Below are positions 3,427 through 11,625 of a DNA stretch of 64,000 nt, piece by piece. The position numbers and the translations under genes were made by a program. This DNA comes from Micractinium sp. NFX-FRZ (taxonomy: Eukaryota > Chlorophyta > Trebouxiophyceae > Chlorellales > Chlorellaceae), in assembly GCA_029339195.1 (NCBI GenBank), contig JAPTJF010000050.1:62001-126000 (forward strand), written 5' to 3'. Within the stretch, counting starts at the first letter, position 1. Each line of letters begins with the position of its first letter. A model generated the notes under the pieces. That model had not been told where the DNA came from. It saw nothing but the letters and a program-made list of their open reading frames with translations, and searched no databases.

Positions 3427-6400
3427 TCACGCTGCCATGGCCAGGCCTGCCTTGCCGCCGGCGACGCGCTCAGCCACGTGGCGCCTCGCCCACTGGTCGT
3501 AGTGCACAATCTCCTCCAGTGTTGGCGCCTCCACCAGCTCTGCCTGGTGCGCCTCGCAGCACTCCTCCACCACCCGCATGATGTCCAGGTACCCAATCTT
3601 CTCATCTAGGAACAGCTCCACCGCCTGCAGCGGAGGGGCAGGCAGGGGAGGAACGAGGATACAGGTAAGAGATGGCGCGGTGCCTGTTCTTCTCCTCCAA
3701 GTGCAGCCGCACAGCCTGCACGGTCACCGAGGTGGAGGGGGTGACGTGGCAGGCGGGCGGCGGGTGGAGAAGGGGTGATGGGCACATCAGCAACTTCAGT
3801 GGTTGTGTTGTGAGGAGGTAAAGGCAGGGGAGGGCATGGGGACGGGGCAAGGTGAGGGCCAGGCCAGCAGCGGGGTTGGGGGCGTTGAGGTCCCTTCTCG
3901 CCGCGTCTTTGCTGCCCAATGTACTAGGGCAGCCAGCAGGTCGCTCCACCCCCCACCCCAACCACTCAACCGCCCTCTCGCCTGCTCGTTGGCCGCGCTC
4001 ATGACGCCGGTCATGGTGCCTCCCGCGCGCCCGGATGCATAGGCAAGCTTCATGCTGGGGTACTTGGCGTGGTCGGGCTGCCTGCAAAAGTGATGAGGTG
4101 ATGGCGATGGCAGTGATGGAGATGGCTGTCAGTGAGGCTGACACCAGGTGTGGTTGCTTCAAGCACTGGGGATTGCCTCATGCTGACGAAGTCAATGCCC
4201 CCAGTCCAGCCCATCCCACCCCAATCAGCCAGCACACAGCAGGCGCAGCGCCCGCCCGCCCCACCGGAAGGTGAGGTCCCCCATTTTGATGAAGTCGAGG
4301 CGCGGCCAGGTGACCTCGCTGCACTGCACCCGCTCCGGCCAGGACATGGTGTACAGGATGGGCAGCCGCATGTCGGGCCAGCCCAGCTGCGCCAGCACGC
4401 TGCTGTCCGACGTCTCAATCATGGAGTGGATGATGGACTGCGGGTGCAGGGAGAGGGGTGGGTGGATGGGGGCAGTTGGTGGCAGTACAGGGTGGGCAGG
4501 TACAGGTGAGGTGGCCCATTGCACACCCAGCTTTCGTGGGCCCGATCAACTGAAACACAGCCAGCCGTCACAGCGCTGGTACAGCCGAGGCCGTGCACAC
4601 GGGACCTGTGCAGGGTGCAGCCGAGGCTGTCACCGCTGCTTTAGCCATGAGTGCTGGGACCAGGCGCCGGGCCTGAGGGGTGCTCACACCGGGTGCCACT
4701 CCCCCCACACACTCTTAACACGTGCCCGCACCGCACCTGCGGGTGGATGACGATGTCGATGTTGTCGTAGTCGGCGCCAAACAGGTAGTGCGCCTCAATC
4801 ACCTCCAGCCCCTTGTTCATCAGCGTGGCTGCAGGCGGGAGGAGACAAGGGGGAGGGCAGGGCAGTGGGGAAGGGGCAGGGAGGGGTGGTGCGGGCGGGC
4901 AGGCGGCGCAGCATGTGGCACAAGGCCATCCCACCGCCCCTGAGAGTGCGAACAGCCGGCCATCCAGCCCCTCGTTCCATCACTGCCCCAACCCCACTCA
5001 TAACTTCGAGCACACCCACGCGCCGCAGTCGGCCATTCTGACAGGAGGCAGCCCAACATGTACCCCCCCACCCCACCCCACCCTTGCCCCCACCCCACCC
5101 ACCCGAGTCCACCGTGATCTTCTTGCCCATGCTCCAGTTGGGGTGCTTGAGCGCGTCGGCCACCGTCACGCTGGCCAGCTTCTCGACGGGCAGGTCGCGG
5201 AAGGCGCCGCCGCTGGCGGTGAGGATGATGCGCCGCATGCCGCCCTCGGGGATGCCCTGGTGGGGTGGGGCAGGCACACAGAGGGGCGAGGGGTGGGAGG
5301 CGGCGGGGGCGGGTGGGTGGGGAGCAGGGAGCGGGTGGGGTGCAGTGCGCAAGGGTAGGCCAGGGTGCAGCAGGCGTGCGGAAGAGGTGGGTACCCAAGC
5401 AGAGTGGCAGCGCACCGCCGGCCTCGGCCCCCGCTCCAGCTGCCACCCCACCCCACCCCTCATCGCGACCTGCTATGCCCCCAATCCTGAAAGGAACTCC
5501 CCCGCCCTCCGTGCCCCGCCCGCCCTCGCCCCCGCCCCACCTGCAGGCACTGGAAGATGGCCGAGTGCTCCGAGTCGGCGGGCAGGATGTTGACGCCGTG
5601 CTTCTTGGCCAGCGGCAGCACAAAGGGCCCCCCCGCAATCAGGGTCTCCTTGTTGGCCAGGCAGATGTCCTTGCCCGCCTCGATGGCGGCCACCGTGGGC
5701 TTGAGCCCCGCGCAGCCCACGATGCCGGTGACACACGAGTCGGCCTCGGCGTGCGCGGCCACCGCGCAGATGCCCTCGTCGCCGGCCACAAACTCGGGCA
5801 TGCGGGGGGCCCCCTTGAGCAGCTCCTTGAGCTCTGCAATCTTGGAGCCGTCGCGCACCGACACCAGGGAAGGCTGGAACTTGCGGATCTGCGGGCAGGG
5901 GGGGGCAGTGAGGCGAGGTGAGGTGAAGTGAGCATGCGCAGGTGGGTGTCGTCAAATGTGTGACCGCACGAGTGCACCGAGGGTGGGTGATCGGGGGAGG
6001 GAGCGGGCTGGGGCTGGCAGATGTGGGTTGGTGGGGAGAACGAGGTCATGGCAGGTCCTGCTCCCCCGGCCGCTCAGAGGCCTCCAGCTCAGGAAACAAA
6101 GGAACACATGCAGCCGCTCCCACACCTCCACCCTCCTCATCACCTGCTCCGCCAGCAGCTCCAGGTTGAGAGCGAGGGCATGAGGTCTCCAACACATCCA
6201 TCTCCAGTAAGCCGCACATACACTCCCCTCCCATCTCCCCCCCTTCTCACCTGCTCCGCCAGCAAGTCCAGGTTGCCGCCCGCCGCCAGCGCGGTCACCT
6301 CAAACTTGTCGGGGTGCTCCCCCACAATGTCCAGCGTCTGGGTGCCAATGGAGCCGGTGGAGCCCAGCAGGGAGAACTTCTGCGGGGAGACAAGGGGCAG

Positions 6401-7345: not shown

Positions 7346-9016
7346 ATGGACCGCCTGGACCGCGATGTGCTGCTGCGGGTGCTGGCCCTCTGCTCCTGCC
7401 GCGACGTCCTGGCCCTCGCCTGCACCTGCAAGGAGCTGAGCACAACGCTGCAGGTCGATGATCTGTGGCGCCAGCTCGCCGAGCAAAAGTGGGGCCCGGC
7501 GGTGCGCCGCCTGGCGACGGTGCAGCCCGGCGGCTGGGCGGCCTGGGTGAAGCACCGCCTCAGCGCCAGCAGCCACCCACGCTCGCCGCTGGATCTTGTC
7601 CAGGTCAGCAGGCGCCCCGCCAGCCTGGCAGGGTGGTGGGTGCGGACGGGGGGGGGGGCTGGAATCTGGTGGTTTCCCGCATGCACATCTGGTAGCAGGC
7701 AGGGTGGCGGGTGGGGACAGGGGTGCTGGAACCTGGTGGTCGCCCACATGAACGTCTGGACTGCTTGGCCAGGGGTCTGCAGCACATGGTGGTGGCAGGC
7801 GCCATTGCACCGCCGCCTCTGCTGTGTGTCCAAGAGGGGCACAGCCCCCCGTGTACTGCCGGCGTGCCTGCTCTTGACCCTTCTCTCTCCATTGCCGTCC
7901 TGGAAACCCGCCCCTCCTTCACCCGCACCCCCCCACAACTCACACCGCCCCCCCTGCAGGAGCACTACACCGGCTGCCCTTTCCAGCACATCACGGCGTG
8001 CCTGCTGTGCAGCCGCACCACCGGCGGCCCCGCGGTGCAAGGCGCCGTCCAGCTCTTCCTGGCCCTCTACCCCACACCATCAGACGTGCTGGCTGCGCCC
8101 GAGAGCAGGTGGGCACATGCAAGCTTGTTGGCAAGCAGGCCAGCGCCCATGCAGCCACCTGTTGTGAAACCAGCCAGCTGCCAACCATGCTTGGCCTCAA
8201 CTGCGCCTCAGCTCCCCATGCTTGATGGAACACCTTGCTCCCCGCCCTGCTCCCCGCCCCCTCTCCTGCCCCCACCTGCCGCCGCAGCATGCGCGAGGTG
8301 CTGCACCCGCTGGGCCTGCAGGACACGCGGCTGGCGGGGGTGAGGGGCTTAGCGCACGACTTCCTAGCCACTGATTGGCAGGACCCGTCAGAGTTCAAGC
8401 ACTGCGGCAAGTTTGTGTCAGGTGTGTGGGTCCGCTGCAGGGAGGTGGCCCAAGTGGCGAGGCAAGGCAAGCCTGTGACCGACCCTGCTGTGCTGCGCTG
8501 TGCTGTGCTGTGCTGTGCTGTGATTCAAGGGAGCCAGCGGGCCCCAGGCTCCACCTCACACTGCAGCCTCTTGCCTGCCTGCCTGCCTGCCTGCTTGTTT
8601 ATGGCACACCCCGCCCTCCCGGCCCTCTCCTTACACCCTCTCCGACCTCCCCTGCCCTCCCTCCCGGCATCCCACCCCTGTACCCAGCAGACTCCTGGCT
8701 CATCTTCTGCCGCGGCCACCGCAGCCTGGCCGGCATCGAGGACAAGAACCTGCGGCGCTACCTGAGCTGGGTGCTGTCGGGGAGCGTGGAGGACAAGGAA
8801 GCGGCAGAGAAGAAGCGGCAGCGTGCGGCTGCCAGCCGGAAGCGGAATGAGGAGAGGGAGGCAGAGGCGGGCACGCTGCGGTCTGGGCGGCGGCGTGGCG
8901 ACTCGGCAGCAGGCACTGGTGGCAGGCGGCCGGCCGGGCGTGCGCCGCGGGCAGAAGCAGCAGGGGAGCGCCGGCTGACGCGGGCAGCGGCGGCTGGTGC
9001 AGAGGCCAAACCATGA
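7346..9016 (+). CDS. F-box protein fused to MBD4-type HhH-GPD DNA glycosylase
   Basis: Exons 7346-7603, 7960-8108, 8288-8421 and 8691-9016 give about 288 residues. Residues 1-50 are a good F-box (MDRLDRDVLLRVLAL, CKEL, DDLWRQLAEQKWG), a Skp1-binding module of SCF ubiquitin ligases. From about residue 78 the protein follows the C-terminal glycosylase domain of MBD4: SPLDLVQEHYTGCPFQHITA, LCSRTTGG, FLALYPTPSDVL, HPLGLQDTRLAGV, then FKHCGKFVSDSWLIFC with the catalytic aspartate at about 181. MBD4-family enzymes remove T or U from G mismatches. The LVQ|E junction lies inside the conserved glycosylase start, so the F-box and the glycosylase share exon 1 and the fusion is not a mis-joined neighbour. 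The tail is rich in Lys/Arg/Glu and looks nuclear. No methyl-CpG-binding domain is present. The last acceptor is a CAGCAG pair (8685-8690), so an extra Ala may appear before the catalytic Asp. Confidence 0.85.
7627..7763. repeat. Tandem duplication (about 70 bp) in intron 1 of the F-box glycosylase gene
   Basis: Copies at about 7627-7694 and 7699-7763 share GGCAGGGTGG, GCTGGAA-CTGGTGGT and CACATCTGG/AACGTCTGG blocks in the same order. Intronic; no coding role seen. Confidence 0.7.
8484..8604. repeat. TGTGC and TGCC simple repeats in glycosylase intron 3
   Basis: A TGTGC pentanucleotide run (about 8488-8522) and a GCCT tetranucleotide run (about 8575-8600). Confidence 0.8.
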
Positions 9017-9541: not shown

Positions 9542-11625
9542 TCAGACCAGCTTCCCCCCTCCCGCTGCCCTTTGGAGCACCCTGCCTCCCAGGTCCACAT
9601 GCGTGAGGGATGGCATCTGCTGCAGGACGCCGCCCATGTCGGCGCGAGTCAGCCTCAGCTGGGCGCACGCGTTGCCACCCAGGGAGAGAGATTGCAGGGA
9701 CGTGGCAGCCGTCAGGGCGGCGGGCAGGTGGGCCAGCTTGTTGTTCGATAGATCCAGCTCCACCAGGCCTGCAGGCCGGCAATAAACAGATTGTTTACTT
9801 GTTATTGGCATTGAAGGCGAAGTGACATGTGGGATCTAGGGGGATGGTGTGTGGGCAAAACAGAATGTCTGGTTGGGCACCCCTCCCGTCACCCCATGGC
9901 ATGCCTGCCCCTCCTGCATGCACGCCCGCCCGCCCAACACGCTCTCGTGGCGCCCCACCTTTGAGGTAAGGGCCGGGCGGCAGGTCGGTCAGTGCGTTGT
10001 TGCTGAGGTCCAGAGACGTAAGCCTGAGGCCCTCCATGACGGCGATGGCGGGAGGCAGCTCCGGCAGCTTCCATTGGAGCGCGGTGGAGGAGAAGGCCAG
10101 GGCTGCCAGGTGCGGCGCCTGCGGCACAAGCGCCTCCAGCACCGCCCCGCCCTGTGACGCCTCGCCCAAGCTTCGGAAGTTGCAGCTGCGCAGGCGCAGG
10201 CGGCGCAGCTGTGCCAGCTGGGTGCAGCCCTGCAGCCTGGAGGGCAGCAGCTCACAGCCTTCCAGGGTGAGGGACGTCAGCTGCTGCCGGGCGCCAGCGG
10301 GCACCACACCGTCCAGCAGCTGTCGCAGATGGCTCAGGGTGTGGGCTCCCGCCACCTCCAGCTCGTACCCAGAGCCTGGGCCGCTGCCTGCTGGGGAGCA
10401 GGAGCAGCTCACCAGCACCGCCTCCGGGGCAATCCGGCCAGGCACCTGCAAACACACAGGGTGAGGTGTGTTTGCATACAACAGTGCCGTGGCAACGGTG
10501 AAGCGTTGCACCACTGACCCTTGGGAAAGCAGGGGCCTGGCACAGGCACTTGCACAGATGCACCGGCAAGCTGCAGGCGCGCGAAGGCTGCACAAAGGCA
10601 GCGCGCATGCCGGCAGGGAGCCGCAAACCCTCGCCAGCCACACACCCGATCGGGATGATGTACTCGTGCGCTCCGGCCAGCGTGCCCACCTGGAAGGCGC
10701 ACTCCAGAGCGCTGACCTTGTAGGTTGTGAGGTGCGGGAACATGGGAGGTGGCGGGGCCTGCATGAACACCTCGTGAATGAACGCCGCGTCCCCCCGCTC
10801 CTCGCACAACACCAGGCTGCGCAGCGCCTGCAGCCGCGTCAGCTGCGCCAGCGGCTTCCACAGGTTGCCGCCCAGCTCAAGGGAGGTCAGCTGGGTGAGC
10901 TGGCAGATGCTGGCGGTGAGGGTGTCGGGGAGGCGACCAGGCACGCTGCGCTGAGTCGACGCGTTCCCCTCTGCAGAGCCTGCCGAGCAGCGCAGGTGCT
11001 GCAGCTGGATCATCCGGGGCAGCATGCTGGCTGTGGCGGCCGTCACCTCACTGCACACCACCTCTAGCCTGGTCAGGCTGCTGCTGAAGCGCACCAGCTC
11101 CTGTGCAGTGGCGGGGCTCAGGGCCTCCTCCCCAGCACCCACAACCAGGGAGCGCAGCGCGGCCGGGGACAGCAGGCGGAGGGCATCGGCGGGCTGCCAC
11201 CCAGCGCCGGCGGCGGCGCCCGGCTCCTCAAAGCCGCCGTGCCTGCCGCACACAGCCAGCTCCTGCACCCAGCTGCCCACGCGCTGCAGCAGGCGCTGCT
11301 GGCTGGCTAGGAAGCCCTGCCGCCGTGCGGGGGAGAGGCGGAGGGCCTCGGGGTTGGCAGCCTGGAGGGAGTAGCTGTGCCACACGGCCGCCTCCTCAAA
11401 GAACACGCGCTGCCAGCGCTTGCTCACGAGGAGGGCGGCGGGCCTGCAGGGGGCGCACGTGCAGCGTGTAAGTGTGTGGGGGGGCCCTGCAAGCCTGGTG
11501 GGTGCTGGCCACTTCTTTGAGGCCGATCCCCGCCCTCCTCACCCCAGCTCGTGCGCGGGGCCGACCAGCACCATCACACGGCCTAATAGCGCGTCAGGCA
11601 GCACGTCCAGGCTGGGCCTGGCCAT
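9542..11625 (-). CDS. F-box / leucine-rich repeat protein (516 aa)
   Basis: Exons 11625-11543, 11443-10690, 10445-9959 and 9768-9542, all in phase, 516 residues. The N-terminus is an F-box (MARPSLDVLPDALLGRVMV, LLVSKRWQRVFFEEAAVWHS). The remainder is an irregular leucine-rich repeat solenoid: LTSLELGGNLWKPLAQL, LTSLTLEGCELLPSRL, LRRLRLRSCNFRSLG, LTSLDLSNNALTDLPPGPYL, LVELDLSNNKLAHLPAAL, LQSLSLGGNACAQL. Expected role: substrate receptor of an SCF ubiquitin ligase; the substrate is unknown. Start chosen at the ATG at 11623-11625, just before the F-box; the upstream in-frame stretch is low-complexity and has no support. It is convergent with the F-box glycosylase gene and has a possible TGTAA signal at 9334-9338 on its strand. 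Confidence 0.85.

Follow-up and report, generated by a model that had tools for sequence, protein, structure and literature searches.

An F-box and an MBD4-type DNA glycosylase domain in one gene of Micractinium and other green algae

We examined a gene from Micractinium sp. NFX-FRZ that encodes an F-box followed by a DNA glycosylase domain of the MBD4 type. The gene lies in a 64,000-nt stretch of contig JAPTJF010000050.1 (positions 62,001-126,000, forward strand). We will call this stretch the window, and coordinates are given within it. The gene occupies positions 7346-9016 on the + strand, has four exons and three GT-AG introns, and encodes a protein of 288 amino acids; its stop codon ends at 9016. 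The gene model was built from the genomic sequence, and the transcript-derived records described below come from relatives. The F-box and the first motif of the glycosylase are both inside one open exon (exon 1), so joining them requires no splicing decision. The initial annotation had placed both domains in one gene, and this is confirmed by the exon structure, by domain matches, and by the recurrence of the arrangement in orthologues. It had also described a conserved LVQE that crosses a splice junction and a helix-hairpin-helix (HhH) region in later exons. Indeed, LVQ is divided from E at 7603/7960, and the helix-hairpin-helix (KHCGKF) is in exon 3.

Pfam identifies just three families in the window protein: F-box, F-box-like, and HhH-GPD. 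When the first 78 residues are searched alone, the F-box (PF00646) scores 23.7 bits (E = 4.2e-5), which is above the cut-off of 20.5. The MBD4-type glycosylase domain corresponds to residues 77-211. In a phmmer comparison with solved MBD4 domains, the best match (E = 1.1e-16) covered residues 76-209. A structural match for the orthologue P0004 links its residues 75-211 to residues 438-573 of human MBD4, with a spacing that agrees with the alignment of D198 to human D560. In both sequence and fold, then, this domain is nearest to the catalytic domain of MBD4, within the HhH-GPD superfamily. The Foldseek and VIA match lists are dominated by the glycosylase part, and the assignment of the F-box rests on sequence profiles (PF00646 on the N-terminal piece, F-box-like in the relatives, and a profile search of PDB). 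Pfam found neither a methyl-CpG-binding domain (PF01429, E ≤ 10) nor a UvrD-like helicase domain in the window protein.

Table 1. Exons, introns and key codons of the F-box/glycosylase gene, in window coordinates.
Feature	Position	Strand	Basis
Exon 1: start codon, F-box, linker (KWG ... GGWAAWVKHR), glycosylase start SPLDLVQ	7346..7603	+	sequence
F-box, residues 1-50	7346..7495	+	Pfam PF00646 and PDB profile search
Intron 1, 356 bp, GT-AG, divides LVQ/E	7604..7959	+	
Exon 2: glycosylase helices; intercalating Arg R105 (human R468), codon 8014-8016	7960..8108	+	
Intron 2, 179 bp, GT-AG	8109..8287	+	
Exon 3: PLGL (L146, human L508); helix-hairpin-helix KHCGKF; F178 (human Y540), codon 8412-8414	8288..8421	+	
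Intron 3, 269 bp, GT-AG	8422..8690	+	
Exon 4: remainder of glycosylase, D198 (GIEDKNL), basic low-complexity tail, stop	8691..9016	+	
Codon of catalytic Asp D198 (human D560)	8741..8743	+	alignment; role of D560 from PMC12073362 (in part)

Searching a large protein set three times yielded 16, 46, and 42 matches, or 78 distinct proteins combined. An F-box and then a glycosylase are present in 13 named green algae: Micractinium sp. CCAP 211/92, M. tetrahymenae, M. conductrix, Chlorella vulgaris, C. sorokiniana, C. ohadii, Myrmecia bisecta, Coccomyxa sp. Obi, C. elongata, Botryococcus (portal label Botrbrau1), Monoraphidium minutum (a metagenome-assembled genome), Scenedesmus sp., and Tetradesmus obliquus. 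The search for relatives with both domains, which the initial annotation had suggested, thus succeeded from Chlorella and Micractinium to Coccomyxa, Botryococcus, and Scenedesmus. No member came up by name from Chlamydomonas, land plants, or prasinophytes in these searches, each of which scored only the roughly 8000 candidates that shared the most words. A protein filed under the acoel Convolutriloba macropyga (P0010) has the same layout and groups with algal transcripts; it probably comes from the animal's algal symbiont. In the family tree, P0033-P0035 are with the green algae.

Among 23 relatives, which include the 13 named algae, Pfam (E ≤ 0.01) reports F-box-like in 20, F-box in 15, and HhH-GPD in 18. 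The hydrophobic pattern of the F-box is kept in the green algae, with L4 in 20 of 21 rows and W41 in 21/21. When we compared a profile of 12 green N-termini to PDB, we obtained 34 matches at E ≤ 1, of which the best was FBXW7 (E = 2.8e-5), and 30 of the 34 were named F-box proteins, Skp2, cyclin F, or FBXW24. The other names were 'Expressed sequence C85627', 'cyclin A/CDK2-associated p19', 'Ankyrin-repeat protein B', and a ribose-phosphate pyrophosphokinase (0.29). Elsewhere in the Micractinium assembly, an open frame on C104 (L005:1363-1803) is 43% identical to the F-box region (residues 18-71) and has a weak F-box-like match (0.029).

Could the gene model be an artefact, with a chance F-box-like reading frame or a neighbour's exon placed ahead of an MBD4 gene? 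The model for the window gene does come from genomic DNA, with transcript records from relatives only. But the F-box and the start of the glycosylase share an exon, and the order of the domains is repeated in orthologues and in two transcript-derived records (P0018 from MMETSP and P0021 from TSA), each of which is marked complete and has both domains in one open reading frame. In addition, P0001 (299 amino acids, 91% identical to the window protein) is from a contig of 1380 bases, which cannot fit the coding sequence and introns of the size seen in the window, so P0001 is probably a spliced transcript. Because the same domain order recurs across relatives, a chance fusion is very unlikely, and we regard an artefact as ruled out for practical purposes. 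This looks like a conserved family of repair proteins rather than a sequencing oddity.

The family extends to a clade of 20 rows (support 100/98) with Skeletonema marinoi (P0051), Mediolabrus comicus (P0055), and 18 further rows. (The family tree has 55 rows, after six further partial rows were removed.) We call this the diatom clade after its two species-labelled members. P0062, P0039, and P0065 branch beside it. Within the clade, the linker motifs RWG and W-Y-x-Y are invariant, and the glycosylase assignment rests on the family profile and a fold match. A comparison of the diatom and green N-terminal profiles gave a probability of 98.3, an E value of 1.3e-13, and a score of 73.7, while 30 column-shuffled controls scored 13.0 or below. 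(This comparison used 18 of the 20 diatom-clade rows and 23 green-side rows, including P0062.) Together with the weak F-box matches described below, this indicates that the green algae and the diatom clade have an N-terminal module in common, and that the F-box has drifted in the diatoms.

The residues that MBD4 uses to catalyse excision and to intercalate into the strand are retained. (Papers with PMC numbers are cited for the portions that were available.) In human MBD4, D560 is the catalytic aspartate; R468 is an arginine finger that contacts the orphan guanine; Q449 and Y540 contact the Watson-Crick edge of thymine, with the hydroxyl of Y540 reaching thymine O2; and K562 contacts the 5'-phosphate (PMC12073362). 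In our alignment, Q86, R105, L146, F178, and D198 of the window protein correspond to human Q449, R468, L508, Y540, and D560. Residue counts are for 58 family rows and exclude human, Hydra, and Grosmannia; before alignment, the set of 79 sequences (the window protein plus its hits) had lost 19 that were fragments or intron read-throughs. The column for D560 is Asp in 56/56 readable rows, that for Q449 is Gln in 56/56 readable rows, and that for R468 is Arg in all 58. At L508, 57 of 58 rows have Leu and one has Met. The initial annotation misplaced the catalytic Asp by assigning it to DSWLIFC: that residue, D181, aligns with human D543, and at that position all 20 rows of the diatom clade have Ser, Ala, or Asn, whereas D198 in GIEDKNL aligns with D560. 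The idea of a lost catalytic Asp in the diatom members was likewise dropped, as their D560 column is Asp.

When we searched the Micractinium assembly with Hydra MBD4, we found a second gene of this type, on contig C17 (L027:4559-8560). Its exon pieces include LNKTSG, GIGKYAADAY, and PEDKDL, and its N-terminus is long and of low complexity. That N-terminus also holds a cysteine motif, GCAKCRYSRGGCARCR. The three upstream open frames that we scanned had no Pfam match at E ≤ 1, so there is no F-box in them. Once joined, the glycosylase domain of the C17 gene is identical to human MBD4 at 59 of 128 positions and to the window protein at 46 of 128. In a tree of 29 rows, the C17 gene joins human and Hydra MBD4 and is split from 26 rows of the F-box family at 100/99; the rows were chosen, the C17 row was joined by eye, and the tree is unrooted. 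It shows that, by sequence, one assembly holds two distinct MBD4-type genes, whose relative age an unrooted tree does not give. The window protein is thus not MBD4 proper, as it does not group with canonical MBD4 and has no methyl-CpG-binding domain. The initial annotation was right that this domain of animal MBD4 is absent, but its suggestion that the F-box takes the domain's place is too simple, because a separate canonical MBD4-type gene exists in the same assembly.

The assembly has weak matches to methyl-CpG-binding domains elsewhere and two weak matches to C5-methyltransferases. For uracil glycosylase (UDG), there is a two-piece match at C390 (best E = 0.005), with one piece above the cut-off together with its neighbours. 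Given this match, the apparent absence of UDG (no match at E ≤ 0.001) was not upheld.

What might the F-box do for a glycosylase? With Skp1-family matches at C6 (2.1e-21) and C392 (2.7e-6), and cullin matches at C13, C82, and C172, a Skp1-cullin-F-box (SCF) ubiquitin ligase should be available in this alga. Our preferred reading, which we hold with middling confidence, is that the gene encodes an MBD4-type glycosylase from a distinct algal subfamily, one equipped with an F-box of its own for docking on Skp1, most likely for self-regulation. The C-terminal domain would flip out a base opposite G (U, T, or a modified pyrimidine) and cleave it, with D198 activating water for base excision. The F-box would bind Skp1 and, through Skp1, Cul1. 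The most likely use of SCF assembly would be to control the level of the enzyme itself, its localisation to the nucleus, or the step that removes it from the abasic product. In Fbh1, an F-box DNA helicase, the F-box is required for nuclear localisation and for damage foci (PMC2294136). Because the F-box of Fbh1 governs the localisation of Fbh1 itself, self-regulation is the simplest reading.

Several observations weigh against this reading. Some of them concern the F-box. In the full window protein, both domains fall slightly below the Pfam cut-offs (F-box, 19.7 bits instead of 20.5, E = 0.0008; HhH-GPD, 24.7 bits instead of 26.2), so the Pfam scores are modest, and P0004, from M. conductrix, has no Pfam F-box match at E ≤ 0.01. 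The expectation that close relatives would keep the F-box holds for P0001-P0008 (P0006 begins within it), but five other records (P0011, P0027, P0028, P0030, and P0032) begin immediately before the glycosylase and lack it. Another three (P0022, P0025, and P0058) begin within the F-box region. The records without an F-box are likely to be fragments or alternative transcripts, because P0030 is closely related in the tree to P0026, which has an F-box, and because P0032, which ends ahead of the catalytic Asp, has the same glycosylase sequence as P0021, which also has one. Genuine forms without an F-box are possible. In the diatom clade, Pfam (E ≤ 1) matches F-box in 6 of 20 rows (best E = 1.2e-4), F-box-like in 6/20, and HhH-GPD in 2/20; and when a profile of eight N-termini from this clade was compared to PDB, F-box proteins were matched weakly (best 0.042).

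This drift of the F-box while RWG and W-Y-x-Y stay invariant is what one would expect if the F-box lacked ligase function and served only as a structural module or bound Skp1 alone, as a relic holding the N-terminal helices folded against the glycosylase. F-box proteins that act independently of SCF do exist (PMC3814724). However, the green algae keep the hydrophobic pattern at L4 and W41, and the profile of their N-termini matches the F-boxes of solved structures. We consider a relic quite unlikely.

The remaining observations against our preferred reading concern the pocket. The Y540 column is Phe in 57/57 readable family rows. The K562 column is changed in 51 of 56 rows (39 Asn, 8 Thr, 3 Met, and 1 Ser, with Lys in 5), and the window protein has N200 there. 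Because Y540, like D560, is present in every animal species studied (PMC6838969), the Phe sets the algal family apart from those animals. Given both changes, T:G and U:G may not be what the enzyme acts on. It might instead have a different substrate from canonical MBD4, such as an oxidised or otherwise modified pyrimidine, with the F-box being secondary. A different substrate would explain why both paralogues persist, and the assembly does hold a canonical paralogue with GIGKY and no F-box in the three frames scanned. On the other hand, the family keeps Q449 and R468, the residues with which human MBD4 touches thymine and the orphan guanine (PMC12073362). On balance, we think a change of substrate as the main explanation is rather unlikely, but worth weighing.

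Alternatively, the glycosylase could target SCF to a mispair or an abasic site, so that chromatin, methylation, or repair proteins are ubiquitylated there. SCF receptors usually have an F-box followed by a binding domain at the C-terminus, and in this family that order is common to the green algae and the diatom clade. Also, human MBD4 recruits USP7 and interacts with UHRF1, and these regulate the stability of DNMT1 (PMC4964934). Against this, the kept catalytic residues suggest an active enzyme and not merely a reader, and the idea comes without a candidate substrate. We would guess that such lesion-guided ubiquitylation is not the main role, with perhaps some chance that it is. A broader version is similarly doubtful: green algae and diatoms could have an old family of lesion-triggered SCF ligases, present alongside a canonical MBD4 as seen in this assembly, in which the glycosylases are the receptors, the remodelled pocket recognises a distinct lesion or mark on a pyrimidine, and proteins at the site are ubiquitylated.

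A few features around the glycosylase deserve mention. The tail of the protein (8783-9013) is basic, with LRSGRRR and ERR-x-TRA motifs that recur in Chlorella and Micractinium relatives; a role in nuclear localisation or DNA contact is only a guess. Upstream, on the - strand, is a gene for 1-deoxy-D-xylulose 5-phosphate reductoisomerase (5463-5951; PF02670, 7.5e-27 on one open frame), which probably extends to about 6770. The downstream neighbour is convergent: a leucine-rich repeat gene at 9545-11538 on the - strand (PF13855, 9.8e-7).

A glycosylase that docks on Skp1 through a domain of its own, retained both in green algae and in the diatom clade, would be a built-in coupling of ubiquitin to repair. 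This can be tested directly with one recombinant protein and with point mutants of the F-box or the catalytic site in an alga. Furthermore, one algal assembly has two genes of the MBD4 type, and the family-wide change from Tyr to Phe in the pocket predicts a different range of substrates.

The initial annotation knew of no described protein with this architecture, and our literature searches agree: judged by titles and the opening lines of abstracts, they found no published account of a protein with an F-box and a DNA glycosylase, with subscription journals thinly covered, so an earlier mention is possible. In term searches, 'F-box' is absent from a review of plant base excision repair (PMC10573277) and from a review of the non-catalytic domains of glycosylases (PMC9266487). 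Database labels name one half of the protein ('DNA glycosylase isoform A' or 'F-box domain-containing protein'). A review of chloroviruses (PMC7019647, in part) describes F-box-like ankyrin proteins and a pyrimidine-dimer glycosylase, which are viral and unrelated.

Among known systems, MBD4 (or MED1) of animals has the same HhH glycosylase domain, with the catalytic Asp, the Arg finger, the Leu wedge, and the Gln of the pocket. It differs in that it has a methyl-CpG-binding domain where the window protein has an F-box, and in that the window family has F in place of Y540 and, mostly, N or T in place of K562. The window family is also separate from canonical MBD4 in the tree, and the assembly has a canonical gene as well. 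Plant MBD4 lacks the methyl-CpG-binding domain and keeps the catalytic residues (PMC10573277). MBD4L of land plants, compared here by its description and with no plant sequence aligned, has a long N-terminus instead of an F-box. Fbh1 (FBXO18) is likewise a repair protein in which an F-box occurs together with a catalytic domain that processes DNA, and it is a possible functional model (PMC2294136). Its catalytic domain is a helicase, while the window protein has a glycosylase and no helicase domain. KDM2A and KDM2B (FBXL11 and FBXL10) are chromatin enzymes, histone demethylases, with an F-box within the enzyme, as here, but their catalytic domain is unrelated and they have further domains. TDG, a T:G glycosylase that is subject to ubiquitin-dependent turnover, is a functional parallel, but it has another fold, and the ligase docks from outside and not via a fused F-box. 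To our knowledge, where ubiquitin is known to be linked to base excision repair, the link runs through a ligase that reaches the glycosylase from outside.
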